Positions 2,766 to 8,916 of a DNA stretch of 9,476 nt are shown in pieces. The notes below the pieces were generated by a model. That model did no database searches. It was given only the letters and a program-made list of their open reading frames with translations, and was not told where the DNA came from. The number at the start of each line of letters is the position of its first letter. The stretch's first letter is position 1. The position numbers and the translations under genes are program-made. The stretch is from Nocardioides sp. (GTDB taxonomy: Bacteria > Actinomycetota > Actinomycetes > Propionibacteriales > Nocardioidaceae): the NCBI GenBank assembly GCA_023252065.1, contig JAHEXO010000047.1:1-9476 (forward strand), written 5' to 3'.

Positions 2766-3478
2766 CGCGAGCGTTCCAGGAGCGTGTCCGGCCGGTTGGC
2801 GCCCGACTCGTCGACGACCACACCGTCGCGGAGGAACACCACCCGGTCGGCCCACGCGGCGTGCCGGGCCTCGTGGGTGACCAGGACGCCGGCCGCGCCT
2901 GCGTCACATCGACCCCGGAGCACGCGCAGGACGTCCTCGCCGGTCTCGCTGTCGAGAGCGCCGGTCGGCTCGTCGGCCAGGATCAGCCGGCGCTCACCGA
3001 CGACGGCGCGGGCGATGGCGACCCGCTGCTGCTGGCCGCCCGACATCTCGTCGGGGAACCGGTCGGCCAGCTCGCCGATCCCGACCTCCTCCAGCGCCTC
3101 CCTGGCCGCCTTGCGGGCCGACCGGCTGCCCTGGCCGTCCAGCTCGCGCGGCAGGGCGACGTTCTCGACCGCCGTCAGGGCGGGGATCAGGTTGAAGTCC
3201 TGGAAGACGTAGCCGATCGAGGTACGCCGCATGGCCGCGCGCCCCTTCTGCCCCAGCCCGGCCAGGTCGACGCCCTCGACCCGCACGACCCCGTCGGTCG
3301 GGGTGTCCAGCCCGCCGGCCAGGGTCAGCAGCGTCGACTTCCCGGACCCCGACGGACCCATCACGGCGACCAGCTCCCCGGCGTACGCCGCGAAGCCGAC
3401 GGCGCGCCGGGCGGTCACCTCGGTCGCCCCCTCTCCGTGCACCCGGGTGACGGCCTCGAGCTCCAGCACGGCGTTCAC
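2762..3478 (-). CDS. ABC transporter ATP-binding protein (MacB/LolD type)
   Basis: This is the cytoplasmic ATPase of the PadR-controlled ABC system, 238 residues, a usual length. All nucleotide-binding motifs are intact: Walker A GPSGSGKST (41-49), Q-loop Gln93 in VFQDFNL, signature MSGGQQQRVAIARA (from 145), Walker B LILADEPTGALD (165-176) and H-loop His202. The VFQDFNLIPALTAVENV stretch is typical of the MacB/LolD/FtsE group that drives FtsX-type permeases. The start is GTG 3478-3476, which overlaps the padR stop as GTGA; the reading frame stays open far upstream, but that part is only a shadow of padR. The stop overlaps the permease ATG as ATGA, so all three cistrons are probably translationally coupled. 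Substrate is unknown. Systems of this layout often handle antimicrobial peptides or lipids, but nothing here fixes it. Confidence 0.93.
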   Translation of the reverse strand: MNAVLELEAVTRVHGEGATEVTARRAVGFAAYAGELVAVMGPSGSGKSTLLTLAGGLDTPTDGVVRVEGVDLAGLGQKGRAAMRRTSIGYVFQDFNLIPALTAVENVALPRELDGQGSRSARKAAREALEEVGIGELADRFPDEMSGGQQQRVAIARAVVGERRLILADEPTGALDSETGEDVLRVLRGRCDAGAAGVLVTHEARHAAWADRVVFLRDGVVVDESGANRPDTLLERSR

Positions 3479-4101
3479 CGGCCCGCTCCCTTCGAGGCGA
3501 CAGTGGCGACCTTCCCGACCTTCCCGACCTTCCCGACCGACGCGACCGGTTCGGCCCGCCGCTCGGCGGCCGCGCGGCGCAGGCGGGCCTCGCAGTGGTC
3601 GAGCCACCGGATCTCCGCCTCGGCGCTGAAGACGAGGGAGTCGAGCACCAGCCCCCATGCGAGCTCGGCGGAGCCGTCCGAGCCCTCGCCGGGGTCGGCG
3701 GCCCGTCGCTTGAGGCTGGTGTAGTCCTGCAGGGCCGTCATGGTGGCGCTGCGCTGCTGCTGGATGACCGCGCCGACGTCGACCCCTGGCACGGTCACCG
3801 CGAGCGCCAGCTTGATGGCGAGCTCGTCTCGGGGCGGCTGCGTGCGGGCCACCGGCGAGGTGAACCAGTCGGTGACCTCCTGGCGCCCGGCGTCGGTCAC
3901 GGCGTAGACGACGTGTCCCTCGCCGTCCTCGCCCCGGCCCTCGACCAGCCCGTCGCGCTCGAGCCGGGCCAGGGTCGTGTAGACCTGCCCGACGTTGAGC
4001 GGCCAGGTGCCGCCGGTGTGGTGCTCGAACTCCGCTCGCAGCTGGTAGCCGTAGCGCGGTCCCTGCTCCAGCAGGGCGAGCAACGCGTTGCGCACCGACA
4101 C
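3475..4101 (-). CDS. PadR-family transcriptional regulator
   Basis: This is a winged-helix regulator of 208 residues heading the ABC operon and probably repressing it. The N-terminal PadR domain (about residues 3-75) has the family pattern LLALLEQGPRYGYQL, then NVGQVYTTLARLERDGLV and a beta-wing ending VVYAVTDAGR. A helical C-terminal dimerisation part follows (about 90-180; PadR-s2/Vir_act_alpha_C-like). GTG 4101-4099 is chosen because AGGAGG (4113-4108) lies six bases ahead; a second GTG at 4095 is less well spaced. The stop overlaps the ATPase GTG. The C-terminal tail carries three Val-Gly-Lys units (about 189-198) from a 9 bp tandem repeat, outside any conserved domain. The palindrome in the promoter upstream is a good candidate for autoregulation. 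The ligand is unknown. Confidence 0.92.
   Translation of the reverse strand: MSVRNALLALLEQGPRYGYQLRAEFEHHTGGTWPLNVGQVYTTLARLERDGLVEGRGEDGEGHVVYAVTDAGRQEVTDWFTSPVARTQPPRDELAIKLALAVTVPGVDVGAVIQQQRSATMTALQDYTSLKRRAADPGEGSDGSAELAWGLVLDSLVFSAEAEIRWLDHCEARLRRAAAERRAEPVASVGKVGKVGKVATVASKGAGR
3507..3538. repeat. 9 bp tandem repeat within the padR 3' end
   Basis: Three perfect copies of CGACCTTCC followed by CGACC, in frame with padR. On the coding strand they encode Val-Gly-Lys repeats near the C-terminus. Copy number is probably variable between strains. Confidence 0.85.
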
Positions 4102-4107
4102 CGGTGG

Positions 4108-4113
4108 CCTCCT
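4108..4113 (-). promoter_or_regulatory. Shine-Dalgarno of padR
   Basis: AGGAGG on the minus strand, six bases before the GTG at 4101. It is the best ribosome-binding site in the left half of the window and decides the padR start. Confidence 0.75.
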
Positions 4114-4153
4114 TCGTCGGATCCATGTCCCCCGTGGCCATGGATACGGAGTA

Positions 4154-4183
4154 TGTATACGCCTTTGCATATCGAGTATGCAA
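4154..4183 (-). promoter_or_regulatory. Predicted padR operon promoter
   Basis: On the minus strand, TTGCAT (4183-4178) and TATACA (4159-4154) are separated by 18 bases, close to a sigma-70-type -35/-10 pair. This would give an untranslated leader of about 45 bases carrying the AGGAGG. The -35 element lies inside the TTGCATA-N5-TATGCAA palindrome, an arrangement typical of repression. Confidence 0.5.
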
Positions 4184-6074: not shown

Positions 6075-6159
6075 TGGTTTCGAGACGGTCGCAGAGCGAC
6101 CTCCTCGACCAACGGCCGACCGTCGGTTGAGGAGGCGCGCCAGCGCCGTCTCGAAACCA
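6075..6159. repeat. 85 bp imperfect intergenic inverted repeat (GTTTCGAGACGG type)
   Basis: The outer 14 bp arms are perfect: TGGTTTCGAGACGG (6075-6088) and its complement (6146-6159). They continue inward imperfectly through CTCCTCGACC and GGTTGAGGAGG, with one bulged base. I recognise this as the kind of hairpin repeat seen many times in Nocardioides-like genomes, in intergenic positions; that is memory, not a search. Here it sits between two divergent promoters. No reading frame or transposase is inside. It could fold into a long hairpin or be a non-autonomous mobile element. Confidence 0.7.
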
Positions 6160-6176: not shown

Positions 6177-6195
6177 GTTCTGCTGAGAGCGGAAC
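6177..6195. promoter_or_regulatory. Predicted regulator-binding palindrome upstream of the XRE gene
   Basis: GTTCTGCT-GAG-AGCGGAAC has 8 bp arms with one mismatch around a 3 bp spacer. Its centre is 49 bp before the ATG of the regulator at 6235, and the same palindrome recurs upstream of the clpP operon at the same distance. Activator-binding position and probable autoregulation are inferred. Confidence 0.6.
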
Positions 6196-6222: not shown

Positions 6223-6234
6223 TAGCATCGGGTC
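6223..6234 (+). promoter_or_regulatory. Predicted leaderless promoter -10 of the XRE regulator
   Basis: TAGCAT (6223-6228), then CGGGTC, then ATG at 6235. There is no Shine-Dalgarno, so a leaderless transcript is likely. Confidence 0.5.
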
Positions 6235-6555
6235 ATGGGTGAGGTCGTTCCGCTGCCGGCACGCCGGGAGCCACCGTCGGAGCAGGGGCAGTCCAACGGC
6301 GTGGAGCCGCTGTGGCGTGAGTCGCTGGGCCGCGAGCTCCGTCGCGAGCGGCACGCCTCGGGCAGGCGGCTGGTCGACGTGGCGGAGGAGGCGGGCGTCT
6401 CGCCGCAGTACCTCTCCGAGGTCGAGCGCGGCCTCAAGGACCCGTCCTCCGAGCTGTTGGCGGCGATGGCCGGCGCCCTCGGGCTCTCGGTCGGCAGCCT
6501 CGCGATCCGGGTCGGCTCGACGGCGCCTCAGTCGCCGGTCTGCCTGGCCGCCTGA
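6235..6555 (+). CDS. XRE-family regulator, ClgR/PopR-like, with C-terminal Ala-Ala
   Basis: A 106-residue DNA-binding protein with one Cro/cI-type helix-turn-helix domain (about residues 28-85). The core VSPQYLSEVERGLKDPSSELLAAMAGAL closely resembles ClgR and PopR, the activators of clp genes in Streptomyces and relatives. It ends Cys-Leu-Ala-Ala; in Streptomyces, PopR and ClgR are degraded by ClpP1/P2 through C-terminal alanines, so this tail is a probable degron. Gene context agrees: the gene converges on a clpP pair with a 28 bp 3' overlap, and its promoter shares a palindrome with the clpP promoter. The inferred role is an activator of the clpP pair and of itself, accumulating when the housekeeping Clp protease is overloaded. 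An unrelated XRE antitoxin is unlikely, because no toxin gene is present. Confidence 0.87.
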   Translation: MGEVVPLPARREPPSEQGQSNGVEPLWRESLGRELRRERHASGRRLVDVAEEAGVSPQYLSEVERGLKDPSSELLAAMAGALGLSVGSLAIRVGSTAPQSPVCLAA

Positions 6556-7160
6556 CCGACCCGCGGCCCGGCGTCGCGCGAGGTGATCACGGCGTCCACG
6601 ACGCCGTACTCCACCGCCTGCTCGGCGGTGAGGACGAGGTCGCGCTCGGTGTCCTCACGGACCTGCGCGGGCGTGCGCCCAGTGTCCTGCGCGAGGAGCT
6701 CCTCCAGCAGCGAGCGCACCCGCTCGATCTCCTCGGCCTCGAGGATCAGGTCGGGGACGGTGCCGCGGCCCTCGGCCGCCGGCGCGTGCAGCACCACCCG
6801 GCCGTGCCGCAGGATCTGCCGGTGCCCGGGCGCGCCGCCGGCCAGGAGCGCGGCCGCCGTGGCGACCGCCTGCCCGACGCAGGTGGTCTCGACGACAGGG
6901 CGCACGAACTGCATCGCGTCGTAGATCGCCAGCATCGCCGGGATCGAGCCCCCCGGGGAGTTGAGGTAGAGGTTGATCGGCGCCTCGGGGCTCTCGGACT
7001 CGAGGTGGATCAGCTGGGCGATCACCGTGTTGGCGACCCCGTCGTCGATGGGCGTCCCGAGGTAGATCACCCGGTCGGCGAGCAGACGGCTGTAGACGTC
7101 GACGGTCCGCTCGCCGCGGTTGGTGAGCGTGGTGACGTAGGGAATCGGGTAGCTGGTCAT
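6528..7160 (-). CDS. clpP: ClpP-family protein lacking the catalytic serine
   Basis: A 210-residue paralogue of the ClpP peptidase (S14). The fold is well preserved: NLYLNSPGGSIPAMLAIYDAM (63-83), TTCVGQA (92-98) and the C-terminal AVEYGVVDAVI. At the position of the nucleophile, the usual GQAASMG reads GQAVATA, so Ser is Ala100. The register is secure because His125 (RVVLHAP) lies 25 residues on, as in active ClpPs, and Asp174 (TERDLVL) is also kept. It is probably inactive and forms a mixed tetradecamer with the partner encoded just upstream, comparable in principle to cyanobacterial/plastid ClpR. The ATG at 7160-7158 overlaps the partner's stop as ATGA, deciding the start and indicating coupled synthesis. 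The reading frame is otherwise intact, so it does not look like a decaying gene. Confidence 0.92.
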   Translation of the reverse strand: MTSYPIPYVTTLTNRGERTVDVYSRLLADRVIYLGTPIDDGVANTVIAQLIHLESESPEAPINLYLNSPGGSIPAMLAIYDAMQFVRPVVETTCVGQAVATAAALLAGGAPGHRQILRHGRVVLHAPAAEGRGTVPDLILEAEEIERVRSLLEELLAQDTGRTPAQVREDTERDLVLTAEQAVEYGVVDAVITSRDAGPRVGQAARQTGD

Positions 7161-7840
7161 CGCTCGGGGCCCCCGCGACGTTGTTCGACGGAGGAGCGGA
7201 GCGGGGGAGGAGCAGAACGTCGTGGCGTGATTGACGCCCCCAACCCGAGCGGACGTCGTACGACGGGCTGCACCTCGTCGAGCGAGGCGACGACGTGGTC
7301 GACGAAGCCGTAGTCGAGCGCCTCGTCGGCGCTGAACCACCGGTCGCGCCGCGAGTCGCGTTCCACAGTCTCGATGTCCTGGCCCGTGTCCTCGGCGATC
7401 AGCCGGAGCACCGTGTCGCGGGTGTGCCGCAGGTCGTCGGCCTGGATCGCGATGTCCATCGCGGTCCCGCCGATGCCTCCGGAGCCCTGGTGGAGCAGGA
7501 CGCGTGCGTGCGGGAGCACGTAGCGCTTGCCCCTCGTCCCCGAGCTGAGCAGGAACTGGCCGGCGCTGGCCGCCATCCCCATCGCCACGGTGACCACGTC
7601 GTTGGGGATGATCCGCATCACGTCACGGATCGCCAGCATCGCCGGCACCGAGCCGCCGGGCGAGCTGATCCAGAGCTGGATGTCGGCGCGGGTGTAGCGA
7701 GCCGCCAGCACCATGAGGCCGGTACAGAGCCGGTTGCCCAGGGTCTCGTCGAGCACACCGCCCATGAGCAGGGTGCGCTGCTCGAGCAGGCTGCCCGCGA
7801 TCTCGTCGTCGATCCGGTGCCAGGCCGTGGAGTCGTTCAT
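7157..7840 (-). CDS. clpP: ATP-dependent Clp protease proteolytic subunit, first gene of a clpP pair
   Basis: A 227-residue ClpP peptidase, the proteolytic chamber used by Clp ATPases such as ClpC or ClpX. The catalytic triad is intact: Ser92 in GMAASAG, His117 in PHARVLLHQ and Asp166 in SRRDRWFS. WISSPGGSVPAMLAIRDVM (57-75) is the conserved substrate-groove/oxyanion region. A basic, Pro-rich tail (about 190-227) extends past the usual ClpP end, and its last bases overlap the next clpP gene. ATG 7840 is chosen because family similarity begins a few residues later. The frame remains open far upstream through a 15 bp repeat array, but that part looks regulatory. The paired layout next to a PopR/ClgR-like gene resembles the accessory clpP3-clpP4 operon of Streptomyces. 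Confidence 0.92.
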   Translation of the reverse strand: MNDSTAWHRIDDEIAGSLLEQRTLLMGGVLDETLGNRLCTGLMVLAARYTRADIQLWISSPGGSVPAMLAIRDVMRIIPNDVVTVAMGMAASAGQFLLSSGTRGKRYVLPHARVLLHQGSGGIGGTAMDIAIQADDLRHTRDTVLRLIAEDTGQDIETVERDSRRDRWFSADEALDYGFVDHVVASLDEVQPVVRRPLGLGASITPRRSAPPPLRSSVEQRRGGPER

Positions 7841-7852
7841 GCTGCGAGGCTG
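7841..7852 (-). promoter_or_regulatory. Possible weak -10 of the clpP operon (leaderless)
   Basis: On the minus strand, CAGCCT (7852-7847) then CGCAGC precedes the ATG at 7840. It resembles the TAGCATCGGGTC of the XRE gene (CAGCCTCG against TAGCATCG), but has C in place of the first T, as might be expected of an activator-dependent promoter. No Shine-Dalgarno is visible. Confidence 0.3.
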
Positions 7853-7879: not shown

Positions 7880-7973
7880 GTGCTGCCCCGGGCGGAACTG
7901 CTCTGGGCGGAACTGCTCTGGGCGGAACTGCTCTGGGCGGAACTGCACTGGGCGGACCCGCTCTGGGCTGATC
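7880..7973. repeat. 15 bp tandem repeat forming an array of overlapping operator-like palindromes upstream of clpP
   Basis: The unit GGGCGGAACTGCTCT repeats with a 15 bp period: three identical copies from 7890, then three increasingly diverged ones, ending against the potC stop. Read as palindromes, the copies are: 7880-7898 GTGCTGCC-CCG-GGCGGAAC; 7895-7913, 7910-7928 and 7925-7943 GAACTGCT-CTG-GGCGGAAC; 7940-7958 GAACTGCA-CTG-GGCGGACC; and a decayed 7955-7973. Neighbours share four bases (GAAC). The site nearest the gene has its centre 49 bp before the clpP ATG. The shared motif with the XRE promoter argues for a regulatory role. Confidence 0.7.
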
Positions 7974-7980
7974 CCCGGAC

Positions 7981-8916
7981 TCAGGGAACGCTGACCACGC
8001 TGCCCATGGCGCGATCGGCCTCCTCGTTCGTGCTCGTGGCCACGCGCGCGGCGGAGCGCCGCAGGAAGACCCCCGTCGCCAGGATCACGATGATGGTGAT
8101 CGCCAGCATGATGGTCGCCAGCGCGTTGATCGCGGGTGTGATCCCGAAGCGGACTGCGGAGTAGACCACGATCGGCCAGGTGTTGGTGGTGCCGTTGGTG
8201 AAGGCCGGCAGCACGTAGTCGTCGAAGGAGAAGGTGAAGGTCAGCAGCGCCGCCGCGACGATCGCCGGGAAGAGCCGCGGCAGCGTGACCTGGCGGAACG
8301 TCGACCAACGGCCGGACCCGAGGTCGTAGCCGGCCTCCTCCAGGGAGTCGCCCATGCCGACGAACCGCGCTCGGATGATCAGCATCGCCAGCGACGCCCC
8401 GAAGACCACCTGCCCGAAGAAGATCGTCCACGGCCCCAACGACGGGAAGAACGGGACGTACTTCGGCACCTGGACGAAGAAGATCAAGGAGGCCACCGCG
8501 ATCACGATCTCCGGGACGACCAGGGTGAGGTAGACCAGTGAGTCGAACGGCACCCGGAGGAACTTGTTCATCCGGGCCAGGGACACGGCCGCCGCGAGGC
8601 CCAGCACGGTCGAGACGATCGCCGCGGCCGCCCCGATCTTGACGCTCGTGACGATGGCCGGGATGTACGTCGGGTCGTGCAGACCGGCGCTGAACCAGCA
8701 GGTCGTGAACCCGTTCCACACCGTCATGTTGCCCAGCTGCGACGGCGGGATGGAGCACACGTTGCCGTGGAAGCCGGAGAGCGCCACCGGAGACGGCTTG
8801 TTGAACGCGAACAGGGCCATCACCGCGATGGGGAGGTAGAGGAAGACGAAGACGCCCACCGCCCACGCGGTCAGGGCGCGCTTGGCGGTGACGACACGCC
8901 TTCGTCCCCTAGGCAC
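7981..8916 (-). CDS. potC: Spermidine/putrescine-type ABC transporter permease PotC
   Basis: A 311-residue inner-membrane permease of the PotC/BPD_transp_1 type, working with PotB, an ATPase and a binding protein to import polyamines or a related solute. TM1 (about 16-36) is followed by an external loop, then about five more TM segments. The EAA loop EEAGYDLGSGRWSTFRQVTLPRLFP contacts the ATPase, and FSFDDYVLPAFTNG is typical of PotC-like proteins. The first external loop (about 39-85) looks longer than usual and has two cysteines (54 and 73). The GTG start at 8916 overlaps the potB stop by 8 bp and follows a purine-rich AAGGAGGAGAGG; no other start fits as well. The stop at 7981 abuts the clpP repeat array, with no clear terminator between. 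Substrate assignment within the polyamine/opine class is tentative. Confidence 0.88.
   Translation of the reverse strand: MPRGRRRVVTAKRALTAWAVGVFVFLYLPIAVMALFAFNKPSPVALSGFHGNVCSIPPSQLGNMTVWNGFTTCWFSAGLHDPTYIPAIVTSVKIGAAAAIVSTVLGLAAAVSLARMNKFLRVPFDSLVYLTLVVPEIVIAVASLIFFVQVPKYVPFFPSLGPWTIFFGQVVFGASLAMLIIRARFVGMGDSLEEAGYDLGSGRWSTFRQVTLPRLFPAIVAAALLTFTFSFDDYVLPAFTNGTTNTWPIVVYSAVRFGITPAINALATIMLAITIIVILATGVFLRRSAARVATSTNEEADRAMGSVVSVP

Follow-up and report, generated by a model that had tools for sequence, protein, structure and literature searches.

An array of six 15-bp units located upstream of a clpP gene pair in Nocardioides is, with a probability of about 0.8 by our estimate, the operator of a PopR-type activator that is encoded by the neighboring gene, that drives a back-up clpP pair and controls its own expression, and whose operator has expanded by slippage. 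The array was found in a stretch of 9,476 nucleotides, all of which was analyzed and which we call the window. We propose that dimers of the PopR-like protein bind the 15-bp palindromic units and bring RNA polymerase to a promoter with CAGCCT as its -10 box. The nearest unit would cover approximately positions -42 to -56, and every further unit would lie 15 bp more upstream. The regulator would act on its own promoter through one equally spaced site. The two alanines at its C terminus should make the regulator a substrate of the housekeeping protease ClpP1P2, so that failure of the main Clp protease would turn on the second clpP pair, as has been reported for PopR in Streptomyces. Slippage duplication would have raised the usual two or three units to six in the window (four of them strong), and a larger number of units might make the response stronger or more switch-like when little regulator is present. 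In this scheme, binding, activation, degradation, the standing of this pair as a second one in the genome and the effect of unit number are what we infer.

The array lies between a potC-like permease gene and the clpP pair, in a gap of 140 bp between the permease gene and clpPa (Table 1). This location supports the proposal, made in an initial annotation of the same DNA, that the array belongs to the clpP operon. In the register defined by related loci, six head-to-tail 15-bp units occupy positions 7882-7971. Four are strong (GCTGCC-CCG-GGCGGA, followed by three copies of ACTGCT-CTG-GGCGGA), and the two further units are weak. Tandem Repeats Finder reports a repeat at 7890-7968 (period 15, 5.3 copies, 93% matches). 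The initial estimate of approximately five or six sites upstream of clpP is confirmed as six, a count that is read from one sequence, in which an assembly error within the repeat is conceivable, although the array is short.

Some details required revision. The sites had been described as overlapping palindromes, but the 15-mers abut, and the GAAC that neighbors seemed to share is an artefact of extending the frame by 4 bp. When palindromy is counted from the letters in that extended frame, as arm positions out of 8, the claim that each period resembles a palindrome holds for the proximal unit (6/8) and for the site in front of the XRE gene (7/8), but not for the inner units, which score a poor 4/8. 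Because the inner units are poor palindromes by themselves, their identity as sites rests on comparison with relatives. The reported agreement of 7880-7898 with 6177-6195 at 13 of 16 arm positions is correct by letter count, and the suggested half-site, N3 spacer and symmetry of PopR type are likewise supported. The array is best read as a functional-looking operator array of PopR type, to which the regulator would bind.

Table 1. Coordinates and properties of the predicted regulatory elements and associated genes in the window.
Feature	Positions	Strand	Properties
Single operator before regulator gene	6179-6193	+	TCTGCTGAGAGCGGA; PWM 20.5, best in window; only 9/12 consensus letters
Predicted -10 box TAGCAT, regulator gene	6223-6228	+	29-nt gap to operator, as at clpP; predicted start at ATG 6235
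PopR-like XRE regulator gene	6235-6555	+	Product 6235-6552, 106 aa, ends ...PVCLAA; ClgR structure 3f51, E 3.2e-15; Pfam HTH_31/HTH_3
clpPb, second operon gene	6528-7160	-	Start overlaps clpPa stop; Pfam CLP_protease, E 3.7e-62
clpPa, first operon gene	7157-7840	-	227 aa; Ser-His-Asp present; Pfam CLP_protease, E 2.9e-56
Predicted -10 box CAGCCT, clpP operon	7847-7852	-	[CT]ANNNT at fixed spacing from unit 1
Operator unit 1, promoter-proximal	7882-7896	-	GCTGCCCCGGGCGGA on + strand; PWM 13.6; 10/12 consensus letters
Operator units 2-4	7897-7941	-	Three identical copies of ACTGCTCTGGGCGGA; PWM 15.7 each; adjacent identity 15/15
Operator unit 5, degenerate	7942-7956	-	ACTGCACTGGGCGGA; PWM 6.9, ~4th percentile of relatives' units
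Operator unit 6, degenerate	7957-7971	-	CCCGCTCTGGGCTGA; PWM 9.1, ~6th percentile of relatives' units
potC-like permease gene	7981-8916	-	

Loci for comparison were collected in two ways. A contig scan for related loci, of which the best 80 of 297 were kept, found its nearest relatives in Nocardioides. A protein search (E 1e-15) within the genus of one relative, G001, detected the regulator in 139 of 215 genomes, and 138 regions were taken. The total is 219 records, including the window; seven short segments were dropped. Because the two sets overlap, counts use distinct sequences, which amount to 175 promoters under a strict rule (window included) or to 178 under a looser rule that underlies the shuffle, period, PWM and identity counts. 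The promoters are not mutually independent, since 102 of the 175 are the window or belong to the single genus set.

Units were scored against TCTGCC-N3-GGCAGA, with at least 8 of 12 letters at the ends of a run and at least 7 in inner units. By this measure, 142 of the 175 distinct promoters carry at least two tandem 15-bp units: two abutting units are present in 119 promoters, three in 19, four in 3 and six in 1, which is the window, and the others have one unit (32 promoters) or none (1 promoter). These counts bear out the earlier expectation that unit number differs between genomes, and the array in the window is the longest, by abutting 15-bp units, among the 175 promoters compared. Dinucleotide shuffles of the 178 promoters in the looser set contained two units in 20 of 1780 cases and never more. 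A single unit arose in 62% of dinucleotide shuffles, so a lone unit is no better than chance. The period itself was examined over the range of 10-22 bp, where pairs spaced by 15 bp occur in 128 of 178 promoters, pairs spaced by 20 bp in 19, and those at every other period in 0-3.

Sites were also scored with a PWM trained on 311 units from relatives, with the window excluded; the median score of the relatives' units is 16.0. Background sequence, 706.5 kb in total, came from the flanking parts of 77 of the 80 related loci, and one tandem pair was found there outside clpP promoters. At a PWM score of at least 15, these loci have 69 sites in the 250 nt that precede the regulator gene and 3 elsewhere; the corresponding numbers are 70 versus 10 at a score of at least 13 and 74 versus 89 at a score of at least 9. 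Frequent occurrence of the palindrome at random positions had been named in the initial annotation as evidence that would count against a regulatory site. In the 77 related loci, strong single sites are almost confined to the region before the regulator gene and tandem pairs to the clpP promoters, but weak sites (PWM at least 9) are widespread.

Other spacings do occur. In part of the Nocardioides genus set, 18 successive pairs (PWM at least 9) are 20 bp apart, for example, those of L159, L171, L175, L225 and L226. Six pairs are spaced by 30 bp, and one of these is the window's own, which spans the weak unit 5. For the 34 promoters in which fewer than two units at 15 bp were counted, the PWM finds a 15-bp pair in 6, a 20-bp pair in 19, a 30-bp pair in 1, a 48-bp pair in 1 and a single site in 7. 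With 20 bp instead of 15 bp between units, the second site is displaced by roughly half a turn of the helix, and because a minority of promoters are arranged in this way, the 15-bp contact is not universal.

The kind of operator is already known. According to the available part of PMC9775585, which cites Viala et al. 2000, PopR of Streptomyces lividans activates clpP3, and its target is TCTGCC-3N-GGCGAATCTGCC-3N-GGCAGA; counting the letters of the target as quoted there gives two palindromes 15 bp apart. The initial annotation knew of no described clp promoter with such an array, but a tandem PopR operator of two units has thus been described. According to the same excerpt, two terminal alanines probably serve as a signal for degradation. 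The accessible text of PMC9765437 and PMC12607617 reports that PopR controls clpP3clpP4 and is degraded by ClpP1P2, and that ClpP3P4 is a back-up core that is expressed upon failure of ClpP1P2. The system in the window shares with the S. lividans system, as these excerpts portray it, the TCTGCC/GGCAGA half-sites, the N3 spacer, the 15-bp spacing, a regulator that is a ClgR paralogue with terminal alanines, and a clpP pair that is probably a second one. It differs from the quoted S. lividans operator in having six units instead of two, an altered left half in the inner units and a host of another genus, and it is known from sequence.

When the entire window is scanned with this PWM, the top hit is the operator that precedes the XRE gene; array units take ranks two to six, and the weakest unit, at 7942, is tenth. 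The number of consecutive units depends on the threshold. At a PWM score of 6, six are counted in the window, as against four in the next best genomes; at 9, the window has four, equal to L111 and L192; and at 11 or 13, the window alone has four. "Six" is therefore an anatomical count, and "four" is the count of convincing sites.

Adjacent units within the array are identical at 12, 15, 15, 14 and 11 of 15 positions, whereas adjacent units of relatives have a mean identity of 10.3/15 (168 pairs, with a single pair at 15). With units this nearly identical, expansion to six by duplication looks recent here, and the units found elsewhere appear to be old and selected. In units 2-4, the left half-site reads ACTGCT and deviates from TCTGCC. 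Another expansion is present in a Microbacterium MAG (L058), in which five sites precede the clpP pair at offsets of 40-118, measured from the end of the hit, the last three being identical and 16 bp apart. Both arrays are expanded, with a 16-bp period in the expanded part of L058 and a 15-bp period in the window.

It is quite possible, although we would expect otherwise, that units 1-4, or merely units 1 and 2, form the operator and that the remaining copies are neutral products of slippage. This explanation is compatible with an operator of PopR type. It would account for the identity of units 2-4 in every letter, including the spacer, when the mean for relatives is as low as given above, and it fits the percentiles of units 5 and 6 and the presence of two units in most relatives. 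Less easily accommodated are the exact register of units 2-4 and their PWM scores, which are mid-range among the relatives' units, as well as the second expansion in L058 and the recurrence of three or four units in 22 of 175 promoters. A more ambitious proposal, which we advance tentatively and consider rather doubtful, is that of an evolvable ladder. PopR dimers would line up along the DNA in one continuous oligomer, each dimer covering 15 bp. Slippage would alter how many units there are, and this number would in turn determine how much of the protease-limited activator it takes to turn on the back-up Clp protease. Because 15 bp corresponds to approximately 1.4 turns, neighboring dimers would then lie on nearly opposite faces of the DNA. 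If this proposal is true, the six-unit array of the window and the five-site array of Microbacterium represent two independent dial settings.

For a PopR-type operator, the initial annotation had put forward the XRE product as the likely binder, and this choice is supported. The regulator gene is convergent with clpPa and clpPb. Against the ClgR model NCBIfam NF041677, its product scores 61.8 bits, below the curated cut-off of 170 bits, a cut-off that discriminates little, as no match reached it in six relatives or 14 control genomes. In each of the six relatives, a PopR-like protein (61-74 bits) is accompanied by another protein that is a better ClgR match (104-113 bits), and all of these scores are under the cut-off. 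Therefore, the neighbor is a ClgR paralogue, as PopR is. A 123-aa XRE paralogue in G001 and G002 was considered as ClgR and rejected, because its sequence appears by eye to be of another type and it scores 39-42 bits, versus 104-113 bits. All 25 aligned sequences, the window's regulator and 24 others chosen from 120 among 1473 matches, have the C-terminal Ala-Ala, which is also present in 167 of 185 distinct regulators from loci with adjacent clpP (window included; 18 lack it). The LAA end of the regulator is a putative, degron-like degradation signal.

Sites matching at least 10 of 12 letters are the best ones before 82 of 183 distinct regulator genes, as compared with approximately 1% in mononucleotide shuffles. 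The window's regulator gene has a site with fewer matching letters, and because approximately 12% of shuffles reach 9/12 within 200 nt, the case for this site rests on its PWM score and its position. The gap between this operator and the -10 box of the regulator gene was read from the window's own sequence. One operator with spacing like that at clpP indicates that the regulator probably controls its own gene. Farther upstream, a 13-bp perfect inverted repeat was noticed by eye (6076-6088 and 6146-6158, ggtttcgagacgg and ccgtctcgaaacc); it ends approximately 20 bp before the regulator's operator and looks like an intergenic repeat element or a terminator.

We think it unlikely that the array is bound by ClgR, or by ClgR together with the PopR-like protein, rather than by the neighbor's product alone. 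The window's system resembles the ClgR regulon of actinobacteria in its protein superfamily and its clp targets but differs from it in motif, and among solved structures 3f51 comes closest to the regulator in sequence. There are reasons to consider such binding: the neighbor is a ClgR paralogue, and the two motifs are related, in that a ClgR match in L250 overlaps a site of TCTGCC type. ClgR recognizes GTTCGC-5N-GCG, as stated in the accessible portion of PMC9775585. This motif, with at most one mismatch, is present in 4/4 upstream regions of the other clpP pair in four relatives (a count made with no chance control). In contrast, the array region of the window has two matches with two mismatches and no match with fewer than two, and no match with two or fewer mismatches was found in the promoter of the window's regulator gene. 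The other clpP pairs, which we infer to be the housekeeping ones, have no tandem PopR pair in these upstream regions (0/4), and single PopR-type sites (9/12) occur in 3/4, partly coinciding with the ClgR match. Moreover, the tandem motif travels with the neighbor's gene.

The placement of the array relative to the predicted clpP promoter is shared among relatives. Of 132 distinct promoters with at least two units and enough sequence, including the window, 90 have the motif [CT]ANNNT (that is, CANNNT or TANNNT) beginning exactly 29 or 30 nt beyond the proximal unit, and no other single offset accounts for more than 8. Unit 1 is separated from the ATG of clpPa by 41 nt, which is the most frequent offset in promoters with at least two units (26 promoters, window included). 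Given the usual distance from a -10 box to a start site, the clpP transcript is predicted to be leaderless, starting with the A of the ATG at 7840; it is this start that would place unit 1 at -42 to -56. A -35 consensus was sought and not found, with TTG occurring in at most 8 of 134 promoters at any one position. The location of the units upstream of the core promoter favors activation and positive autoregulation.

Small XRE proteins are often repressors, so repression through the array, rather than activation, was also considered. We judge it very improbable, because the units are located at -42 and beyond and not over the core promoter, and the same is true at the regulator's own promoter. 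Also, PopR is described as an activator in the available text of PMC9775585 and PMC9765437. The idea that the repeat is coding, either by adding repeats to the N terminus of ClpPa or by specifying a small peptide, can practically be dismissed: each 15-bp unit would make five codons, and an open clpP frame extends from 8866 to 7157, but ClpPa of L001, L002, L004, L007, L009 and others aligns from the same first residue, a -10 box at fixed spacing lies between the array and the ATG, and the same motif precedes the unrelated regulator gene.

The association of the PopR-like regulator with clpP genes is consistent. A clpP gene is adjacent and convergent to the regulator gene in 209 of 219 records (window included), and 204 records have two clpP hits. 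The other 10 have no clpP within 3 kb; contig ends truncate some of them, and G014 has the pair at a distance of approximately 4.5 kb. In 204 aligned rows, which include the window and retain duplicates between collections, the serine of clpPa is kept in 203, and the remaining row has a gap. The corresponding position of clpPb is column 100, which, from the known ClpP motif, we take to be that of the catalytic serine, and it is occupied by S in 62 rows, A in 55, W in 50 and G in 37. The window's clpPb lacks the catalytic serine, having Ala at protein position 100. Because the clpPb column is mixed and the clpPa serine is nearly constant, PopR-controlled pairs often hold one subunit that should be dead as a protease. 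Four clpP matches were found in 4 of 5 relatives examined, and G001 has only two. The pair in the window looks like a back-up Clp operon and would then be a second clpP pair of its genome.

As far as the open literature shows, what is new is the conservation of the operator as a 15-bp ladder across genera, the shared promoter spacing and the six-unit expansion; among titles and abstract beginnings of open-licence literature, we found no work on the number of PopR operator units. A two-site target known from one Streptomyces promoter thereby becomes a countable grammar across several actinobacterial genera, in which units measure 15 bp, the gap to the -10 box is fixed and the regulator's own gene has a single site. 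Because promoters with 2, 3, 4 and 6 units occur naturally, it becomes directly testable whether operator number tunes a feedback loop whose activator is degraded by the very protease that it backs up.

Elsewhere in the window, a 9-bp tandem repeat is located at 3506-3547, inside the 3' end of an ORF at 3475-4170 on the minus strand, whose product contains the stretch VGKVGKVGK.
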